This document shows positions 1,812 to 59,212 of a DNA stretch of 64,000 bases, one piece after another (the stretch's first letter is position 1; the number at the start of each line of letters is the position of its first letter). This DNA is from Halovenus aranensis. Lineage in GTDB: Archaea; Halobacteriota; Halobacteria; Halobacteriales; Haloarculaceae. The notes beneath the pieces were generated by a model, which did not search any database, was not told the DNA's origin, and worked only from the letters and a program-made list of their open reading frames with translations. The translations under genes and the position numbers were made by a program. The stretch is taken from positions 1 to 64,000 of the forward strand of contig NZ_FNFC01000006.1 in NCBI RefSeq assembly GCF_900100385.1, in the 5' to 3' direction.

Positions 1812-2420
1812 CTACCGACGACTCGGATCGAGCAGGTGTACCCGGCCCGCGACGAGGCCGACGAGGAGGCCGGTAAAGTGTGCAATCAGTGCCACACCCG
1901 GTGCTGCTGTTGCGAGGGTCACCATCCCCGCGAGCGCGAAAAACACGGAGTATGTCAGCCAATCGGGTAGATTGACGGCCGAACCGAGTGTCGCCGCGAC
2001 CCGGTTACCCGCAAGCAGATAGCCGAGCAACGCGAAGACACCCCCACTTGCACCCACGACACCTGGCGAGGCAGTCACGCCGATGCCCGGTATCACGGTG
2101 ACAACATCACTCAATACAATTTGTGAGACGCCGGCGACAGCCCCAGCGACGACGAAAAACGCGTGAAATCGAGCCCGGGTAGTGAACACTGCCACCGGAA
2201 GCCCGATAACCGCCAGTGCGACCGCGTTCGAAACCAGATGTCCGAGGTCGGCGTGTGCGAAGACGCTCGTGACCACCGTCCAGGGGTTCTCCTGAATCGG
2301 AGGCTGCAACACGAACAACTCGCCGACGAGGTCCGCAAGCGCCGACACCATCTGGAGAGCGTACACGACGACAAACAGCATTACCAGTTCGAACACCGGT
2401 GTCGCCGAACGGGAACCCAT
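1812..2420 (-). CDS. rhomboid family intramembrane serine protease
   Basis: About 202 residues and some six membrane helices. The rhomboid hallmarks are present in order: FAHADLGHLVSN (the HxxxGHxxxN helix, His56 and His61 in this numbering), GASGGVFALLG carrying the GxSG nucleophile (Ser125), and AHFTGLLVGL with the catalytic His (His181). Rhomboids cut transmembrane substrates within the bilayer with a Ser-His dyad. Archaeal substrates are mostly unknown, though haloarchaeal RhoII affects S-layer glycosylation. The frame extends to an ATG at 2492, but the extra 24 residues are polar and lie before the first helix, so the ATG at 2420 is preferred. It is divergent from the 28-aa membrane peptide. 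Confidence 0.88.
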   Translation of the reverse strand: MGSRSATPVFELVMLFVVVYALQMVSALADLVGELFVLQPPIQENPWTVVTSVFAHADLGHLVSNAVALAVIGLPVAVFTTRARFHAFFVVAGAVAGVSQIVLSDVVTVIPGIGVTASPGVVGASGGVFALLGYLLAGNRVAATLGSAVNLPDWLTYSVFFALAGMVTLATAAPGVALIAHFTGLLVGLVAGRVHLLDPSRR

Positions 2421-2498
2421 ACCACGCGATTTGGTCCGCTGGCTGTTGAGTGTATCGCTAGCGAAACACCTAACTTGCGGGACAGACTCCATTCGTGT

Positions 2499-2638: not shown

Positions 2639-3064
2639 ATGGTCGAAACCCTGAGGACGGTCGTGGAAGCGACCGGCCACGACAACGTGTCGGCGGCGCA
2701 TGAAAGTACGTTCGAACTGACGAGCGACGACTACCTCACCCCGGCGGGAGACTGTATCGTCGGTATCGAGGCTGACACGGTTCCCGCCTCGTTTGACGAG
2801 GCGTATATTCACGCCTGCCAGGACGGCGAGGCCTCGATTAGGATAACGCTGGAGGCGAACCAGCACACAGACAGCATCGAGGCCAGTGGCCACCCGGAGC
2901 TAACGTTCGAGAGCGACCGGAGCATGGTCGTCCGGACGAGCGAGTACGTCGACGAGCGGACCGTCGCAATCGACGCGGACAAGGCGGCTGCGGATATCGA
3001 CCGTGACCTCGTGGAGGCCCTTGCCGAGGGCGCGACCCTCACCGCGACGCTACGGGTCGACTAG
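2639..3064 (+). CDS. DUF371 family protein
   Basis: A 141-residue acidic soluble protein. It fits the archaeal DUF371 family: the opening VEATGHDNVSAAHESTFELT, the LTPAGDCIVGIEAD motif, and a late beta-rich part with VVRTSEYVDERTVAID. The family is widely conserved in archaea but has no assigned function that I know. The ATG at 2639 is chosen over the in-frame codon at 2612 because family members begin close to the ATGH segment. It ends 4 bp inside the convergent ABC permease gene. Confidence 0.85.
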   Translation: MVETLRTVVEATGHDNVSAAHESTFELTSDDYLTPAGDCIVGIEADTVPASFDEAYIHACQDGEASIRITLEANQHTDSIEASGHPELTFESDRSMVVRTSEYVDERTVAIDADKAAADIDRDLVEALAEGATLTATLRVD

Positions 3065-4128
3065 AGAGATTCGACATCGACACGTCCCACGTACCACCGG
3101 ACACAGGCATACAGCCCAATCCCCAGTACAGTGAATCCGGCGACGTGTGCCAGCGTCGTGCCTGTCGCGCTGTCGACGGCAAGCAAGGCGACCGTACTCG
3201 CGGGATGTTCCGGCAAGGCGATTGTCCCGCCAAAGAGGAGGACCGCAAGCAGCGAGTACAACAACTGTGCCTGCCGGCGCTGACCGGTCAGTAGCCCAAG
3301 CATCGTCCCGACGACGACCGTAATCAGTGTCATGGCGGCCACGAACACTAGCAACACACCGACGTTCTCGATACCGGTCCCGTTGAGACGCAACAGCACC
3401 ATCCAGAGGCCGGCCTGAATCGGAGCGATTGCAACCATCCCGGCGGCCTTGCCGTCGACGATATCGACCAGCGATAGCGGCGACACCCGGAGCAGTTCGA
3501 GTGTCCCCTGTTCTATCTCCTCGGTAATCGAGTCGACGACGATAGAGCCGCTGATAAACGCCGGCAGGAACAACAACAGCGGCAACAGGATCGTGTAGGT
3601 GAACCCGAAGTACGAACTTGACCCCACGTCCTCTGGAATTTGAACCGGCGCCTCGTCGAGGTAGTCGACACGCTCGACGCGCTCCAGACGCTCCAGTTCC
3701 GACAGTAGCTCGCGAACACTGACGACGATTACTGTCGTCCGCAGGTCTTCGGCCGGAACGACTGCCTCGACCTGTACCTGTGTCCCGCCGCCGACGGGTG
3801 AACTGGCCGTCGAAACGACGGCATCGAGCTGTCCCCGTTCGAATAATTCGAGCGCGTCGTCGTTCGAGGCGACCCGGCGGATAGTGACACCATCGACCTC
3901 CTGGCCTGCCCGAATCAGATTCTCTTCGACATCGCCGGGGACGCCGACCTCGATGTCGGCCCCGCCGTCGACCGAACCGGGGTCGTACAGCGAGGTGAGC
4001 CCGACGACCAGAAACGACGAGAAGGCGGCGATAAACAGTTGGATACAGATCGCGAGGACGATGGTCTTCTCGCGGCTGAGCGACCCCAGTTCGCGTTTCG
4101 TAATCGTCCACCGAGGGTGGTCAAACAA
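3061..4128 (-). CDS. ABC-2 type permease, second subunit
   Basis: A 355-residue membrane protein with the ABC-2 exporter layout: a short cytoplasmic start (WTITKRELGSLSREK), a first helix near residues 24-45, a soluble extracellular region of about 130 residues, then five or so helices from residue 175. The cytoplasmic loop ITEEIEQGTLELLRVSPLS is the usual coupling segment that meets the ATPase. The start is a TTG at 4128 overlapping the end of the upstream permease-protease gene by 8 bp, which implies translational coupling; no ATG is available nearby. With the two upstream genes it forms a three-gene exporter operon. Substrate unknown; NatAB-like sodium export is one known role for this type. 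Confidence 0.85.
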   Translation of the reverse strand: MFDHPRWTITKRELGSLSREKTIVLAICIQLFIAAFSSFLVVGLTSLYDPGSVDGGADIEVGVPGDVEENLIRAGQEVDGVTIRRVASNDDALELFERGQLDAVVSTASSPVGGGTQVQVEAVVPAEDLRTTVIVVSVRELLSELERLERVERVDYLDEAPVQIPEDVGSSSYFGFTYTILLPLLLFLPAFISGSIVVDSITEEIEQGTLELLRVSPLSLVDIVDGKAAGMVAIAPIQAGLWMVLLRLNGTGIENVGVLLVFVAAMTLITVVVGTMLGLLTGQRRQAQLLYSLLAVLLFGGTIALPEHPASTVALLAVDSATGTTLAHVAGFTVLGIGLYACVRWYVGRVDVESL

Positions 4129-6076
4129 CGCTGACCACCACCGTTAGGTTATACGCCAGATGAACCAGCATGGCGGTCCCGACCGCCACGACGTACGCCC
4201 GCTTGCTCCGGCTGGCTCCGACCGCCGAGATGCCGGCAGTCACCACGTGTAACGCAAGCGGTGCAAGCAGGAACAACAGAACCGTCAGAACCGGCGGGCC
4301 GGGAATGATACCGCCCTGGAGACCCGCCTCACCGACAGCGAGGTCGGGCAAGCCGACAAGCTGGGCGAGTAGTGCAATCTTCTCGCCGAGGAAGAACCCG
4401 ACCCCGCTTGCGACGCCGAGTAACACGGCTCGGCGACGGCCCGACGCGAACCGCCGGTGCGTGTAACCGGCGTAGATGTGTAGGCTCTTTGCCAGTTCTT
4501 CGACGACGGCCACGACCACGAGGATGAGGACGACTGAAATCTCGCCGAGCGCAAAGAGCAGGGCGATAGCCAGTAACTGGACGACGAACACGAACGGGAT
4601 GAGCGCGGCTGTGAGGCCACCGACTGCCAGGTACTGCCGGAGCGGTGTCACGTCGACAGGCAGCAGTCCGTTCAGGCGGGCCGTGAATCCGCCGGGTTTC
4701 CCCCGCACCGGAATCGGCCCGACGAGTGCGTCGAGGACGCGCCCTCGGAGCGAGCGCTGGTCGAACATGTCCTCCTCGCGGTAGAGGCCGGCACCGAGTC
4801 CGAAGAAGACGCCAGCACACAGCAGCGGCGGCGTCGTCGAGAAGACGAATTCCGCGAGGCTAATTGCCTCTCCCTGTAGTTCGCGGACGAGCAGCGTGAG
4901 TGGCGAGATGAGTGCAACCGCGCCCACGTCAGTGAAAATGGCAGGCACGAACGCGTAGCTGGTCAGCGTGACGGTGATTGTGACGGTCACGAAGGTCAGT
5001 TCTTTGAACGACCGGGCGAACATCGCACCCAGGAATGTCGCCCCGAGAAAGAGCAAGACGAGTGGCATCACCGCGAGTACGGAGACAGGGCCGCCCAGTT
5101 GCCCGTTGACGAGCACAAACAGCCCGGCGATGATGGCTACTTCGACGGCCATTCCACCCACGAAGTAGGGTAGTGTCTTCCCACCGATGATGTCGAACCG
5201 GCTGACCGGTGACACCAGAAGCAACTCGCCGCGGCGGTTCGTCCGTTCGGAGAGAATTGTGCTGCCGTAGGCCTGAATGAGGAAGTTCATCGGAATGATG
5301 ACCAGAAACGCGAGCACGAGCGACTGGAACGGAAACGGCGGATTGATGTCCGACGGTGACCCCGAGATAGAGTCCTCTGTGAACGAGGCACCGAACCCAC
5401 CAATCGGGCCGCCCGACCCCCCTGTATCGGTCGTCGTCTCGCGGTCGGTGGCAGGTCCGTCCGGTTCGCCGTCGTCCGGTTGGTCGGTAGATGTGTCACC
5501 CGCCTCACTCCCGTCACTCTCCCCACTCTCGCCGCCATCGGAACCGTCTGTCTGACCGGTCGAGCCGTCCTCGTCGTCCGAGTCGTCTGTTCCGCCGGAG
5601 TCGCCACCGAGGCGAAGCCCGTCGCCAAGTGCACTCTGCTGGCGGTACTCCAGCACGACCGAGACGGGAAACGCTGCGGTCTGGTTCAGCTCCTGTCGTA
5701 GCTGTCTGTTGTTGTAGCGGCTGACTGCGCTCTGTAGCTGTCCGTAGGCGGCGATTCCCTTCCGTGACTCGGCGTACACTATCTCGCCGTCGCCGATGTA
5801 CAACTCTACCTCACTTCGACTGACTGCCCTCTCTCCACCCTCGCGGATGACGAACGCACCCTCTGAATCGACCACATCGTAGTAGGGACTTTCCTCGTCG
5901 ACCGATACACGGTAGAGACCGTCGTCGAGACCGGTATCGCCACTTATGATGAACGGAACGACGAGCCCGAACAGCGCCAGCGCGACCAGCGCGATGCCGA
6001 CGGTCCGGCGGTCGATGCCGCCGGCGTTTTTTGTCACTTCCCACCGGGCGATGCGGAGGAGCTTTCGTGGCCGCAC
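4121..6076 (-). CDS. ABC-2 permease fused to PrsW-like intramembrane protease
   Basis: A 651-residue fusion. Residues 1-440 are a NatB-like ABC-2 permease: helix near 28-44, an extracellular domain, a low-complexity Asp/Ser/Gly linker at about 155-225, then five helices including the loop SERTNRRGELLLVSPVSRFD. Residues 480-651 add more helices carrying EELAK (526-530), FLGEK with Glu565, His610 and HLAYN (639-643). The EExxK, Glu and His pattern matches PrsW/PrsW-like glutamic intramembrane proteases. The start is GTG at 6076, 2 bp after the ATPase gene, so the operon is tightly coupled. In PrsW, the protease releases a sigma factor by cutting its membrane-bound anti-sigma. Archaea lack that system, so any substrate here is unknown. 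Confidence 0.85.
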   Translation of the reverse strand: MRPRKLLRIARWEVTKNAGGIDRRTVGIALVALALFGLVVPFIISGDTGLDDGLYRVSVDEESPYYDVVDSEGAFVIREGGERAVSRSEVELYIGDGEIVYAESRKGIAAYGQLQSAVSRYNNRQLRQELNQTAAFPVSVVLEYRQQSALGDGLRLGGDSGGTDDSDDEDGSTGQTDGSDGGESGESDGSEAGDTSTDQPDDGEPDGPATDRETTTDTGGSGGPIGGFGASFTEDSISGSPSDINPPFPFQSLVLAFLVIIPMNFLIQAYGSTILSERTNRRGELLLVSPVSRFDIIGGKTLPYFVGGMAVEVAIIAGLFVLVNGQLGGPVSVLAVMPLVLLFLGATFLGAMFARSFKELTFVTVTITVTLTSYAFVPAIFTDVGAVALISPLTLLVRELQGEAISLAEFVFSTTPPLLCAGVFFGLGAGLYREEDMFDQRSLRGRVLDALVGPIPVRGKPGGFTARLNGLLPVDVTPLRQYLAVGGLTAALIPFVFVVQLLAIALLFALGEISVVLILVVVAVVEELAKSLHIYAGYTHRRFASGRRRAVLLGVASGVGFFLGEKIALLAQLVGLPDLAVGEAGLQGGIIPGPPVLTVLLFLLAPLALHVVTAGISAVGASRSKRAYVVAVGTAMLVHLAYNLTVVVSVV

Positions 6077-6078
6077 GT

Positions 6079-6960
6079 TCAGCCCTCCGAGCGCGAGCCG
6101 GGGTCGGCGACGTTCAGGAACACCTCTTCGAGACTCGACTCTTCGGTCCGGATGTCGACGACCTCGCCGTCTGCCTCCTGGGCGAGCGTGCGCGTCTCCT
6201 CGACTTCAGACATCGATTCGACGGTCCGCCGGTATCTGCCGTTTTCTCGCACGCTGTCGGCCACCTCGACGGTGGTATAGACGTGATAGGTGGTCTCGCC
6301 GTGTGCCTGCTGGAGTTCGTCGAGGTCGCCTCGGGCGACGATTTCGCCGTCGTTCATAATCGCCACACGGTCACAGATAGACTCGACGTGAAAGAGGTTG
6401 TGTGCGCTGAAGACGATTGTCTTCCCCTCCGCTGCGAGTTCTTCTGTGAACTGGATGATGTAGTTCGTCGTCAGCGGGTCGAGGCCGCTCGCCGGCTCGT
6501 CGTATATCAGCACGTCCGGGTCGTTGACCAGCGAGCGCGTGATTGCGACCTTTCGCTTCATCCCTTTGGACATGTCGCCGAGCTGGCGCTCGCGGTGTTC
6601 GAGGTCGAGCTTGTCGAGTGTCTCCGTAATCCGTGTCTCGGCCACGCCGTCGGGCACGTCGTAGAGGTCGGCGAAAAACCGCAGATACGAGGTCGCGGTC
6701 ATCTCCTCGTACAGGGGTGACTCCTCGGGCAGAAAGCCGAGGTGTTTGCGCATCTCGGTCTCGCTCGTGTCGTAGCCAGCGACCTGCGCGGTGCCGGCCG
6801 TCGGGTCGAGCAGTCCAGCGAGCATCTTCAACGTCGTGGTCTTCCCGGCACCGTTTGGCCCGACGATGCCGAAGACTTCACCCTCCTCGACGGAGAACGT
6901 ACTTCCTTCGACGGCGACGAACTCGCCGTACTCTTTGCGCAGGTCCTGTGCCGCTATCAT
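6079..6960 (-). CDS. ABC transporter ATPase, NatA-like
   Basis: A 293-residue nucleotide-binding subunit. Walker A is GPNGAGKTTTLKM near residue 34, the Q-loop region is LGFLPEES, the signature is MSKGMKRKV, Walker B is VLIYDEPASGLD, and the H-loop is FSAHN. The C-terminal tail (LEEVFLNVADPG) is typical of NatA/DrrA-type exporters. It powers the two permeases encoded just downstream. ATG at 6960. Being first in the operon, it probably carries the promoter in the 7028-6961 gap, which has no clear strong TATA box. The chemistry is certain, the exported substrate is not. Confidence 0.92.
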   Translation of the reverse strand: MIAAQDLRKEYGEFVAVEGSTFSVEEGEVFGIVGPNGAGKTTTLKMLAGLLDPTAGTAQVAGYDTSETEMRKHLGFLPEESPLYEEMTATSYLRFFADLYDVPDGVAETRITETLDKLDLEHRERQLGDMSKGMKRKVAITRSLVNDPDVLIYDEPASGLDPLTTNYIIQFTEELAAEGKTIVFSAHNLFHVESICDRVAIMNDGEIVARGDLDELQQAHGETTYHVYTTVEVADSVRENGRYRRTVESMSEVEETRTLAQEADGEVVDIRTEESSLEEVFLNVADPGSRSEG

Positions 6961-7028: not shown

Positions 7029-8192
7029 TCAGTGCGCTGTCTCGGTTCTAGAGGCGTGGCACGCATCCTTGCCAGTCTGCCACTGAAGAGACGGGTACTG
7101 TGAGGACTCATCAACCGTCCAGACCCCCTCGAAGTCTAACTCCTCCATCTCCTCCGCTGTATTCTCTATGTCCGTGTCCAGTTCTTGTACTGTTGCCGTT
7201 CCATCGTTAACGCCAACCCCGGTATCGATATCCGCCTCTGCACTCTGCCAATAAATGTGCTGAATCCGTCCGCCACTCACGTTATGTCCGGCAACAACTC
7301 CACTTTTTCGTGTTCCACTGACTCGAGAGTAGACGAATCCGTTTTCGATATCTCCGAAGCCGCGATTCTTGCCTACCAATCCTCCGACTGATGACTCACC
7401 GCTCACTTCGCCACACGCATGTACGTCACTAACCTTCCCGTCCACGCCGTTGTGTCCGACCAGCCCACCAGTTCTCACCTGTCCAGACACCGCTGTTCCT
7501 GCGTACGACTGCGAAACGAGACTCTCATCGGTATTTATGCCGACGATACCGCCGACATTAGACTCTCCTGTGACGGTCCCGGTTGTCCATGCGCGCTCAA
7601 TCTGGGCGGAGTAATTTCGCCCAACGAATCCACCAACATCTGTTTCGCCTTGAATTAGAACATCCCGGGCGTGTCCGGTCATTGTTCCGTCTTCGTTTAC
7701 CCCAGTCCCTGTCCCGACACCAGATTCGCCAGTAACCTCGGGTTCAGACAGTGAAACCGTCAATTCGCCTCTATTCCGGCCAGCGACGACACCCACGCTT
7801 GATGCGCCAGTTATCTTCGCATTCTGAAACGTAAGTTGTTCTATCGAGCCCGCATTGTTAGCGAACAGTCCGACGTTGTCTTGCTCTGGTCGGTCAATGA
7901 CAAGGTCAGTGATTGTCCGTCCCTGCCCGTCGACTGTGCCAGTGAACAACTCGTTCCGGGTGCCGATTGGGTCCCATCCACCAGCGGCTGAACCGACATG
8001 TGAATCGTATCCGTCGGTCGTCGCATCGAGATTTGCCGTCAGGACGTATGTTCTGTCTCGATTATCACGGACTCTGTGCAGGTCGTGCCAATCAGCTATT
8101 TCTTGGTGACTGTCACCAAACCCAGATAGGCAACCGCTCACGGCGCTAGCCAGACTTGCACCGGCCAAACTGAGGAATCGCCGTCGGCTCAT
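7029..8192 (-). CDS. Tat-exported GLUG-repeat lipoprotein
   Basis: A 387-residue surface protein. The N-terminus has a twin-arginine motif (SRRRFLSLAGA) and a lipobox ending at Cys21 (AVSGC), so Tat export and lipid anchoring are predicted. From about residue 105 there are some seven GLUG-type repeats of about 30 residues with cores such as VGVVAGRN, VGGFVGRN, VGGIVGIN, TGGLVGHN, VGGLVGKN and SGVVAGHN. These build a right-handed beta-helix-like rod found in adhesins and peptidase-associated surface proteins. The gene is flanked by AT-rich DNA. A CTTTTATC box centred near 8216 sits 25 nt before the ATG, indicating a leaderless promoter. Adhesion or surface decoration is inferred. Confidence 0.85.
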   Translation of the reverse strand: MSRRRFLSLAGASLASAVSGCLSGFGDSHQEIADWHDLHRVRDNRDRTYVLTANLDATTDGYDSHVGSAAGGWDPIGTRNELFTGTVDGQGRTITDLVIDRPEQDNVGLFANNAGSIEQLTFQNAKITGASSVGVVAGRNRGELTVSLSEPEVTGESGVGTGTGVNEDGTMTGHARDVLIQGETDVGGFVGRNYSAQIERAWTTGTVTGESNVGGIVGINTDESLVSQSYAGTAVSGQVRTGGLVGHNGVDGKVSDVHACGEVSGESSVGGLVGKNRGFGDIENGFVYSRVSGTRKSGVVAGHNVSGGRIQHIYWQSAEADIDTGVGVNDGTATVQELDTDIENTAEEMEELDFEGVWTVDESSQYPSLQWQTGKDACHASRTETAH

Positions 8193-55826: not shown

Positions 55827-56048
55827 TGCAACTATCCCCAGCAGGGGTACACGGATAAGGGTGTCGAAGCTGTAATCTAACTGGGTAAATGATGTACAAT
55901 CGTTTTCCAGCTCGGTCGGTCGATGGACAGTTGATTGCCGTTCGGCCGGGAGAGCGTTCACTGTGGGCTCGAAGGCCACCTGCGAGAGGTTCCAGAGCGG
56001 CGGTATCGATTCATAAACGGTTTTGTATCACAGTTGAACACTCGAAGT

Positions 56049-56840
56049 ATGTATCCACCACAGGGCGATGGGGCTGGCCGGTCAGAGGCCGCTGGTGAGG
56101 CGGCTATCGCGGCCAGTGGACTGAGTAAACGGTACGGAGAGACACTCGCTGTTTCTGACCTCGACCTGACGATTCCGCAGGGAAGCGTCTACGGCTTCCT
56201 CGGGCCGAACGGAGCCGGCAAGACGACGACTATCGAAATGTTAACTTCGCTGCTCCCGCCCACCAGCGGTGACGCGTCGGTGATGGGCGTCCCCGTCTCG
56301 GAGCGCGACCGGGTCAAACAGCACCTCGGCTACCTGCCACACGAGCCGCCGGTCTACGAATCATACACCGCACGCGAACAGCTCGCCTACGCGGCGGATA
56401 TCCGGAATCTGGATATCTCGACGTCCGACGACCGCATCGATACCTTGCTCGACCGCATCGACCTGCTGGACGTGGCCGACGAGCGAATCGGCACCTACTC
56501 ACAGGGGATGCGTCGGAAAGTTGGCCTCGTCCAGGCGCTTTTGCACGACCCCGACGTTGCCTTTCTCGACGAACCGACGAGCGGTCTCGACCCACGGGCC
56601 TCCCGGACGGTCATCGACCTGATTACCGAACAGGTCACTACGGGGACGACCGTGTTCCTCTCATCACACATCCTGCCCGTCGTCGAGGAACTCGCCGATA
56701 CGGTTGGAGTTCTCTACGAGGGAGAGCTGGTCGCAGAGGATACGCCGACAGCCCTCATCGAGCGCACAGAGTCTGAAACCGGCCAGGGGACGCTCGAAGC
56801 AGCATTCCTCGACATCACGACGGACGAACGAGCGTTATGA
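56049..56840 (+). CDS. ABC ATPase of a second exporter
   Basis: About 263 residues. Walker A LGPNGAGKTTTIEM, the Q-loop area LGYLPHEPP, signature YSQGMRRKVGL, Walker B VAFLDEPTSGLD and H-loop LSSHI. It is a NatA/DrrA-type exporter ATPase with the C-terminal extension LEAAFLDITTDE. The ATG at 56049 starts at MYPPQGDG; the frame to 55935 is unlikely. The stop overlaps the permease-protease start (ATGA). Only one permease gene follows, so the fused protein must supply the whole membrane domain. Confidence 0.92.
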   Translation: MYPPQGDGAGRSEAAGEAAIAASGLSKRYGETLAVSDLDLTIPQGSVYGFLGPNGAGKTTTIEMLTSLLPPTSGDASVMGVPVSERDRVKQHLGYLPHEPPVYESYTAREQLAYAADIRNLDISTSDDRIDTLLDRIDLLDVADERIGTYSQGMRRKVGLVQALLHDPDVAFLDEPTSGLDPRASRTVIDLITEQVTTGTTVFLSSHILPVVEELADTVGVLYEGELVAEDTPTALIERTESETGQGTLEAAFLDITTDERAL

Positions 56841-59212
56841 CAGTCGACCTGTCCGCCCTCTGGCGCGACCTCCGCATCGGCTGGACCATCGCGTACGGTG
56901 AGGCTCTCGACCTCTGGCGACGCAACGATTCCCGGCGACAGCGTGCCATCTACGGCTTTCTCGCGTTGCTGGTGTTGCCCGCGATGTTGCTGCTGGTCAA
57001 GCAGGGGTACGCTCTCGGGGCCACAACCGCCGACGGGGCGGATGTCCCGATTGTGGCGACGGCGCGAAACCTCTTGTTGCCGGGACTTGTTGCCTTCGCC
57101 GTCCTGGGTGGGCTTGGGGCCGTCCAGTCGCTCGCACGTGACCCCGTACAGCCGCTGTTGCTGACGAGCGCTCCCACACGGGCAATCGTCGTCGGGAATC
57201 TGTTGTACTTGCTGGGGACGTGGCTCGTGCCGATGTGTCTGGTGGCTGTGCCGCTGGTCGCGTACGCTGTCGGCGCGGCGGCACCGCTGTTCCCAGTCGC
57301 GGCAATCGTCTTCGGGATACCACTGCTGTTCGTGACGTTGCTTATTGGCCTCACGCTCGCGTATCTCGTCTGGGTCGGCATCGAGCGACTTGGCCTCCCC
57401 GAGTACGCCCGCCGTATCGTGACTGCGTCTGTCACACTCATCGTCTTCGTACTCGCGTTTACGGGCGGCTTTCTCTCTGGCCAAGCAAGCGCAACAGTCG
57501 ACCAGCTCCCGACGGGTGACCCCGCGACGCCGCTTGGCTGGTACGCTGACCTGTTGTTCGTCGGGTCACCAGTCGCGGACCCGCTCGGCTGGCAGACGCT
57601 GTTTGCAGCCGCGCTCGTCTTTGCCGCAATTCCGGCCATCTTTGCCGTCCAGGTACGCATCGCGCCCGCCTTCTGGTACGCGACGCCCAAAACTGCCGAC
57701 GAGGACGACACCGAGCCATCCGGCGGACGGCCCGTCTTCGAGCAGACGCCGAGTGCGACAATCGGCCGACAGGACGGACTCCTGTCTCGCTCGGCGACGC
57801 TCCGAGCAGGGCTGGGATACGTCCGTGGTGCGGTTCGCCGACCCGACCAGTACGTCTATCTCCTCTATTATCTCTTTCCGGTACTCGCAGTGCTCCTTCC
57901 CATAGGGCTGGAGACGCCGGCACTGCTTGGCCCGACACTCGGCGGGAGTCTCGTGGTGTTAGGTGTCTGGCTGGCTGGCGGAGTGGTCTGCCTAAACCCG
58001 CTGGGAACCGAGGGCGCGATGCTCTCACAGCTCGTCCTCGCGCGGACGCCGGCACGCACGTTCGTTCATGCGCGCCTGCTCGTGGGAGTTTGCCTCGGTC
58101 TCGCCGTCGGTCTCGCTGGAGCCGTCCTCTATCTCGCGACGGGGCCGTTTATTACTCTCGGCCGTACACTCGCCGTCGTGCCGTTGCTCGTCGGTGTCGT
58201 CGTCACGAGCGCGGCCTTTGCACTCGGAATCGGCTCGGCGCTCCCGAAGTTCGAGACGACCGAAGTCTTCGACAGCGTCGAGACGGTCGCTCCGTCTATC
58301 ATTGCGGCCCTGATTCACGGTGGTGTAACGCTTCTCGCTACCTGCCTGGCCGTCGCACTCGGTGCACTGCTGACAACGCCCGAGACACCTCTCTCTGGCT
58401 GGGAGGGTATCGCCGCTTTCGGGCTGTTCTGTGTCGTGATGCTCGTCGTCACTGACGGGTCGCGGCGGTACGCGGTCGCACGCCTACGTAATTACGGTCG
58501 CATGCGGGTCGAACCCGGCGGCCTGTTTCACGTGTACGCCAGTCTCGTACTCGCGGTCGGTGCCGTCGTCGTCGGGCAGGCCGTCGGTAGCTCTGTCGCG
58601 TTGCTCGTCGGACTGGACCGGCCCGTCGCGTTGCTTCTCCCGCTGTTGTTCGTCGCCGAGTACGCCGGATACGTCCTCGTCGTCGCCGGGTTCCTCTATG
58701 TTACCCGCCGCGGCCGCGCCTATCTCGACGTATGTCGCCCGTCACGGCGTGACCTCCTGCTTGGCCTCGGTGGCGTCACTGTGTCTGTCGGGGTGTGGGC
58801 GGTCGCGAGTCTCCTCATCTCTGGGCTTGGACTCCCGGTCGCGGACCATCCACTGTTCAGTGCCGAGGAGGGTGACCCCTGGCTGTTGCTCGCACTCGTT
58901 CCGCTGGTCTTGTTTGTCAACGCGCCCGTCGAAGAACTCCTGTACCGTAACGTCGTCCAGAAATACCTCGGGGAACGGTTCTCCCCGACGACTGCGGTGA
59001 TGCTGGCGAGTGCTCTCTTCGCACTGGCACACGTCCCGGCCTACCTCGGTAACAACATCCTCGCTACAGGGGTGACGCTGAGCCTGCTGTTTGCAGTCTC
59101 GTGTGTCTGGGGGACGGTTTATCTCCGGACGGAGAACGTGCTCGTCGTTGCGGGAGTCCACGGCTGTTACAATGTGCTCCTCGTCGCTGGCGCGTATCTC
59201 GCGACGGTCTAG
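56837..59212 (+). CDS. ABC-2 permease fused to CPBP intramembrane protease
   Basis: A 791-residue protein with about 18 membrane helices. Residues 1-540 are duplicated ABC-2-like permease modules: the first helix near 40-57 and the repeated RDPVQPLLLTSAPTRAI and GTEGAMLSQLVLARTPA loops. Residues 570-791 form a CPBP (Abi/CAAX-protease) domain with all three motifs: EELLYR at 699-704, FALAH at 728-732 and HGCYN at 775-779, giving the Glu-Glu, His and His of this metal-dependent protease. The pairing of an exporter with an intramembrane protease suggests that a lipidated or membrane peptide is cut and exported; this is inferred. Coupled to its ATPase by ATGA overlap. Confidence 0.88.
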   Translation: MTVDLSALWRDLRIGWTIAYGEALDLWRRNDSRRQRAIYGFLALLVLPAMLLLVKQGYALGATTADGADVPIVATARNLLLPGLVAFAVLGGLGAVQSLARDPVQPLLLTSAPTRAIVVGNLLYLLGTWLVPMCLVAVPLVAYAVGAAAPLFPVAAIVFGIPLLFVTLLIGLTLAYLVWVGIERLGLPEYARRIVTASVTLIVFVLAFTGGFLSGQASATVDQLPTGDPATPLGWYADLLFVGSPVADPLGWQTLFAAALVFAAIPAIFAVQVRIAPAFWYATPKTADEDDTEPSGGRPVFEQTPSATIGRQDGLLSRSATLRAGLGYVRGAVRRPDQYVYLLYYLFPVLAVLLPIGLETPALLGPTLGGSLVVLGVWLAGGVVCLNPLGTEGAMLSQLVLARTPARTFVHARLLVGVCLGLAVGLAGAVLYLATGPFITLGRTLAVVPLLVGVVVTSAAFALGIGSALPKFETTEVFDSVETVAPSIIAALIHGGVTLLATCLAVALGALLTTPETPLSGWEGIAAFGLFCVVMLVVTDGSRRYAVARLRNYGRMRVEPGGLFHVYASLVLAVGAVVVGQAVGSSVALLVGLDRPVALLLPLLFVAEYAGYVLVVAGFLYVTRRGRAYLDVCRPSRRDLLLGLGGVTVSVGVWAVASLLISGLGLPVADHPLFSAEEGDPWLLLALVPLVLFVNAPVEELLYRNVVQKYLGERFSPTTAVMLASALFALAHVPAYLGNNILATGVTLSLLFAVSCVWGTVYLRTENVLVVAGVHGCYNVLLVAGAYLATV

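Follow-up and report, generated by a model that had tools for sequence, protein, structure and literature searches.

A predicted PrsW-type intramembrane protease fused to an ABC-2 exporter permease in Halovenus aranensis and across Halobacteriota

The window analysed here, a stretch of 64,000 nucleotides from the haloarchaeon Halovenus aranensis (NCBI RefSeq assembly GCF_900100385.1, contig NZ_FNFC01000006.1, positions 1 to 64,000 of the forward strand), contains three adjoining minus-strand genes that encode an ATP-binding cassette (ABC) ATPase, a 651-residue protein in which an ABC-2 permease is fused to a putative PrsW-type intramembrane protease, and a second permease. The ATPase (6079-6960, 293 amino acids; PF00005, 9.5e-31) is the first gene of the operon and its stop is separated by a gap of 2 nucleotides from the GTG start of the fusion (4121-6076), an open reading frame with orthologues both in the family and in the wider phylum; the start region of the second ABC-2 permease (3061-4128, 355 amino acids, TTG start; PF12698, 1.2e-19) in turn overlaps the stop of the fusion by 8 nucleotides, which makes for a tight operon. 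An earlier note, made from the sequence of the window, had described such a tight three-gene operon within 4121-6960, and the arrangement holds, with the operon reaching down to 3061 and so past that range. The closest named orthologue of the fusion is found in Halovenus salina, with 86-88% identity.

The C-terminal part of the fusion (residues 485-651; 4124-4624, minus strand) has five predicted transmembrane (TM) helices, is modelled with a predicted local distance difference test (pLDDT) score of 89, and in a direct profile search of the genome matches the PrsW family PF13367 at 4133-4630 with 31.4 bits, above the cut-off of 23.5, hmmscan with its default filters leaving PrsW unreported for the window protein. 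When the orthologous domains are searched with hmmscan, PF13367 is matched by 39 of the 64 from haloarchaea (best E 5.1e-11) and by 8 of the 19 from outside haloarchaea, whilst the CPBP family PF02517 is matched by 0 of the same 64 and by 2 of the 19 (best 0.0018). Mean identity between the haloarchaeal and the other PrsW parts is only 32%. Both the profile and the conservation of catalytic-type residues therefore bear out the proposal of the earlier note that a PrsW-like intramembrane protease domain follows the ABC-2 module, and they do so in the comparison of PrsW with CPBP profiles that it had suggested.

The four motifs of this domain, all on the minus strand, lie exactly at the residues where they had first been read, and their conservation was counted over an alignment of 119 orthologues. 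Motif 1 is EELAK at residues 526-530 (4487-4501), the EExxK of PrsW, with E526, E527 and K530 present in 119/119. Motif 2 is FLGEK at residues 562-566 (4379-4393) and together with F561 it forms the FxxxE pattern assigned to PrsW, FxxxH being that assigned to CPBP; F561 and E565 are found in all 119 and K566 in 117. Motif 3, His610 (4247-4249), is again present in every orthologue, as is P606, and in motif 4, HLAYN at residues 639-643 (4148-4162), H639 and Y642 are identical throughout with N643 found in 117 and D in the other 2. Far from varying freely among orthologues, which the earlier note had named as grounds for giving up its proposal, the Glu and His residues E526, E527, E565, H610 and H639 are, like K530 and Y642, strictly identical, and a chance match of motifs is ruled out by this 119/119 conservation together with the PF13367 score above its cut-off.

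In the published description PrsW is marked by EExxK, by an additional His in the fifth helix and by HxxxD, and the type II CAAX proteases by EExxxR and HxxxN (PMC4602095). Motif 4 of the fusion is HxxYN, as opposed to the HxxxD of PrsW, and the classical Asp is seen in only 2/119 orthologues. A CPBP protease in place of PrsW is nevertheless ruled out, as motif 1 is EExxK and not EExxxR, motif 2 is FxxxE and not FxxxH, and the profiles point the same way. As judged from its sequence the domain belongs with PrsW, on the strength of its profile match and of motifs 1 and 3, the Asn of motif 4 being CPBP-like; when its profile was compared with that of the CPBP domain encoded elsewhere in the window, which is described below, the match was not significant.

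In the AlphaFold models motifs 1-4 are placed on helices 513-539, 547-574, 595-623 and 625-650, on the inner part of each, with EExxK on the third TM helix, the first of the four-helix core, and the order of motifs on these four successive helices is that of the PrsW core (PMC4602095). When angles around the helix axis are compared, all motif residues other than K566 are turned to within ~66 degrees of the side of the helix that is most conserved, which speaks against a scatter over different membrane faces; a shuffle of the conservation moment, a modest test to which the motif residues themselves contribute, gave for the helices of motifs 1-4 in turn p = 0.04, 0.08, 0.04 and 0.002. By the positive-inside rule the charges of the loops put residues 540-549 and 622-627 on the inside and residues 575-594 on the outside, and from these charges the active site is predicted to lie nearer to the outer face of the membrane. 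The model topology that the earlier note had asked for is thus found as regards four TM helices in the known PrsW order, with the clustering of their residues going no further than the positions of the helices.

The permease module occupies residues 1-435 (4772-6076, minus strand) and matches PF12679 with 30.5 bits (cut-off 27.2) and PF12698 with 28.6 bits. Its model helices are 23-44 and 250-431, its extracellular domain sits between TM1 and TM2, and the full model has weak similarity in the Protein Data Bank (PDB) to solved ABC-2 type exporters when searched with Foldseek; a sequence search for a solved homologue found none. With PF12679 above its cut-off and a PF00005 ATPase adjoining across the phylum the system is identified as an ABC-2 exporter, and the ATPase Walker A motif is intact in 93/93. 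The narrower NatAB type proposed by the earlier note finds no specific support, with no NatA or NatB model among the matches listed for the operon proteins; the best NCBIfam match of the ATPase is drrA, which at 247 bits is under the cut-off, as is the GldA model, and in Pfam the permease of the fusion reaches general ABC-2 families only.

Within the extracellular domain is a disordered linker rich in Asp, Ser and Gly (residues 144-240; 5357-5647, minus strand; pLDDT < 50) that is kept in all orthologues with a length of 62-145 residues. Its content of Asp plus Glu is 20% in haloarchaea versus 16% outside, and that of Gly, Ser and Thr 52% versus 27%. The earlier description of an acidic linker stands as to its presence, its extracellular position by topology and its place before the protease, whilst strong acidity is mainly a haloarchaeal trait. 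A second, cytosolic linker (residues 436-484; 4625-4771, minus strand) joins the two modules and is positively charged, with a mean over orthologues of 4.9 Lys plus Arg versus 2.7 Asp plus Glu.

A survey of genomes throughout the phylum Halobacteriota, which took up and extended the haloarchaeal survey proposed in the earlier note, found the fusion protein in 116/146 genomes of the GTDB family, representing 21 of its 22 genera; the haloarchaeal genera g4 and g7 and most of g12 are without the whole protein. The protease-domain profile matches 200/393 genomes across the phylum, weak matches included. Twenty loci outside the haloarchaeal order were fetched (L142-L161), and all 20 have both parts of the fusion, ABC and PrsW, with the second permease overlapping downstream, which compares with a second permease adjoining in 79/80 haloarchaeal loci. 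The ATPase gene adjoins the fusion in 78/80 haloarchaeal loci and in 16/20 of the others; in four none was detected nearby, two of these being on short contigs. In 15 of the 16 the ATPase is divergently transcribed and only in L156 is it co-directional, as in haloarchaea, a difference that implies a rearrangement. Methyl-coenzyme M reductase (MCR) is carried by 19 of the 20 non-haloarchaeal genomes (15 above cut-off), which are therefore methanogens or MCR-bearing relatives, and a fusion restricted to haloarchaea is ruled out, as the three-gene set is also found in other lineages of the phylum.

Between pairs of orthologues, the identity of the ABC half correlates with that of the PrsW half at r = 0.89, which at the level of sequence is consistent with what would be expected of a single old fusion inherited as a unit. 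Furthermore no permease without protease was found among ~120 loci, save for one copy that is cut by the end of a contig. Two exceptional copies were seen. In the small genome of L156, which has no MCR, the fusion is broken within the linker region, with the N-terminal piece in another frame, and this break is possibly a frameshift or an assembly error. In Halorussus salinisoli the fusion occurs in an additional copy (L054:4989-6920), whose catalytic residues are intact; no ATPase or second permease was detected next to this copy, and a TnpB-like gene and an HNH-repeat gene lie in the same stretch.

Across the 80 haloarchaeal loci only the three operon genes are conserved (78-80/80), the next commonest neighbour family being an aldo/keto reductase-like gene, as classed by sequence, in 22/80. 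A conserved neighbouring substrate gene of more than 70 residues is ruled out, as no family outside the operon is present in more than 22 of the 80 loci, and the substrate is presumably encoded at another place in the genome. The substrates put forward in the earlier note, namely a membrane-bound exporter cargo, a regulator or the partner permease, may be the true ones, but no candidate adjoining the operon is conserved. The archaeosortase ArtA is retained in genera without the fusion, and a comparison of co-losses is uninformative on a link to ArtA substrates. In the window itself a rhomboid family intramembrane protease (1812-2492, minus strand; PF01694, 5.8e-20) lies 0.6 kb beyond the operon, and a putative lipoprotein with GLUG repeats (7029-8192, minus strand; PF07581) lies directly upstream of it; both are outside the conserved neighbours.

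That the two modules are fused and that the protease has a conserved catalytic site is well supported by the comparison of orthologues, whilst the coupling of the protease to export, and its substrate, we infer. The explanation that we favour, and hold with evenly balanced confidence, is that the three genes specify a single machine, namely an ABC-2 exporter incorporating a putatively competent PrsW-type protease that acts on membrane-inserted cargo in a housekeeping role. The exporter would probably consist of a pair of ATPases and two dissimilar permeases, the protease being the C-terminal part of one permease; the active site, in the membrane half nearer the outside, would cut a hydrophobic membrane-inserted peptide or protein, and ATP hydrolysis in the ABC part would deliver or expel the substrate or the product. 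Its role would be general housekeeping of the envelope, with membrane peptides being matured or cleared, as near-universal presence without a local precursor favours housekeeping over one dedicated peptide.

A number of points weigh against this explanation. No published biochemistry on an ABC-PrsW fusion was found in the open-access literature, and no conserved neighbouring substrate or precursor gene of more than 70 residues was found in the 80 haloarchaeal loci. Clustering of the catalytic-type residues in three dimensions would follow from helix positions only, and a Foldseek search of the protease C-domain against the PDB returned no solved protease at a significant level; of the superfamily, APH-1 of gamma-secretase came nearest (E 1.2, TM-score 0.48; not significant), and APH-1 is not itself a protease.

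The alternative that survives best, although on balance unlikely, is regulated proteolysis, in which the ABC part would mainly be a sensor or gate as in the mechanotransmission of FtsEX and the ATP cycle would switch a protease that cuts a membrane regulator, the outcome being a signal and not export. Sigma and anti-sigma factors are absent from archaea, there is no conserved regulator gene beside the operon, and the permease is of ABC-2 export type and not of FtsX type. However, neither is there an adjoining cargo gene, and the PrsW of B. subtilis is a signalling protease (PMC4602095, PMC9263693). In the available text of a study of H. volcanii, HVO_0408 is the only PrsW-like protease listed for this organism, with its function unassigned and no ABC module mentioned, and it rises when the rhomboid RhoII is deleted, indicating a response to the state of membrane proteolysis (PMC9263693). 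HVO_0408 is probably the orthologue of the fusion, as the orthologues from Haloferax (L062, L070) are fusions, and in that case its rise hints at a link between the fusion and membrane proteolysis; the point counts for regulated proteolysis only so far as this probable identity holds.

A bolder reading, which we regard as rather unlikely, is that of an ATP-powered intramembrane proteolysis machine, in which the ABC part would be an engine that feeds membrane-embedded substrates to the fused protease for general clearance of membrane peptides throughout Halobacteriota, which would make it an ABC-powered equivalent of FtsH and other membrane AAA proteases. It would seem quite improbable that the operon is a dedicated system for maturation and export like SagE with SagGHI, removing the leader from a short secreted peptide, for instance a halocin-like, a signal or a lipid-linked one, during export. 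The parts list is that of streptolysin S, namely an ATPase, two permeases and an ABI-superfamily protease, and both permeases are weakly similar to the SagH model, but no conserved small ORF (open reading frame) of at least 70 amino acids and no modification enzymes are found near the operon in the 80 haloarchaeal loci, and the fusion is near-universal in haloarchaea and broad outside them where dedicated peptide systems are usually patchy. The weakest proposal, that the PrsW domain has no protease activity and serves for structure or for binding of the substrate, like APH-1 in gamma-secretase, would draw on APH-1 being the best, if not significant, fold match in the superfamily and on motif 4 having N where PrsW has D, and is very doubtful given that all catalytic-type residues are strictly invariant over the phylum and that N is normal in motif 4 of the related CPBP/Rce1 proteases (HxxxN, PMC4602095).

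The preferred explanation of a protease-bearing exporter is of wider interest, as intramembrane proteases are thought to be ATP-independent and in the fusion a single complex would directly join ATP-driven transport to cutting within the membrane. That the fusion is conserved speaks for a core role in the envelope of archaea, a group for which we know of almost no membrane-protease substrates, and as genetically tractable haloarchaea carry the fusion the question can be put to the test now.

The window contains a second fusion at 55935-59212 on the plus strand, where an ATPase gene overlaps that of a 791-residue multi-spanning protein with a C-terminal CPBP protease (PF02517, 6.4e-17) in which EExxxR, His and HxxxN are intact. 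No Pfam family matches the N-terminal part of this protein, but the overlapping ATPase gene and its many hydrophobic segments suggest that it is an ABC permease. Matches over the full length come almost entirely from within the genus, and elsewhere the two halves are mostly encoded by separate genes at different places. Two independent fusions imply that ABC-associated membrane proteins have gained such a protease more than once in the lineage, and this repetition strengthens the case that coupling of ABC proteins with proteases is useful.

Finally, the fusion can be set beside known systems. With PrsW (PF13367, MEROPS M82; B. subtilis) it has in common EExxK, FxxxE, the extra His, the His of motif 4 and four successive TM helices, and it differs in standing behind an ABC-2 permease and in having HxxYN as motif 4; we know of no anti-sigma substrate of PrsW in archaea. 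With the CPBP/Rce1-like type II CAAX proteases (PF02517) it shares the plan of the superfamily and the HxxxN of motif 4, whilst having EExxK for EExxxR and FxxxE for FxxxH. The NCBIfam family NF041647 (ABC transporter permease subunit/CPBP intramembrane protease) is by its name a similar one-chain idea with a protease of the CPBP family, but its model (cut-off 435 bits) leaves the fusion unmatched at E <= 1 and in the genome search and gives the partner permease 19 bits. The nearest working analogy of an ABC transporter acting with an ABI-superfamily protease is that of streptolysin S, where SagGHI works with the suspected leader protease SagE (PMC4513790); SagE and SagGHI are encoded by separate genes beside the toxin precursor and modification enzymes, whereas here the parts are fused and there is no local precursor. 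The NCBI annotation of one orthologue, on a Haladaptatus plasmid, with the ATPase and permease flanking it, is 'ABC transporter permease subunit', a name behind which the protease part is hidden, and no description of an ABC-PrsW fusion, or of PrsW in methanogens, was found in the open-access literature. Both domains are known, as is a family that fuses an ABC permease with a CPBP protease (NF041647), whilst the fusion of ABC with PrsW, as compared within Halobacteriota, appears to be new.

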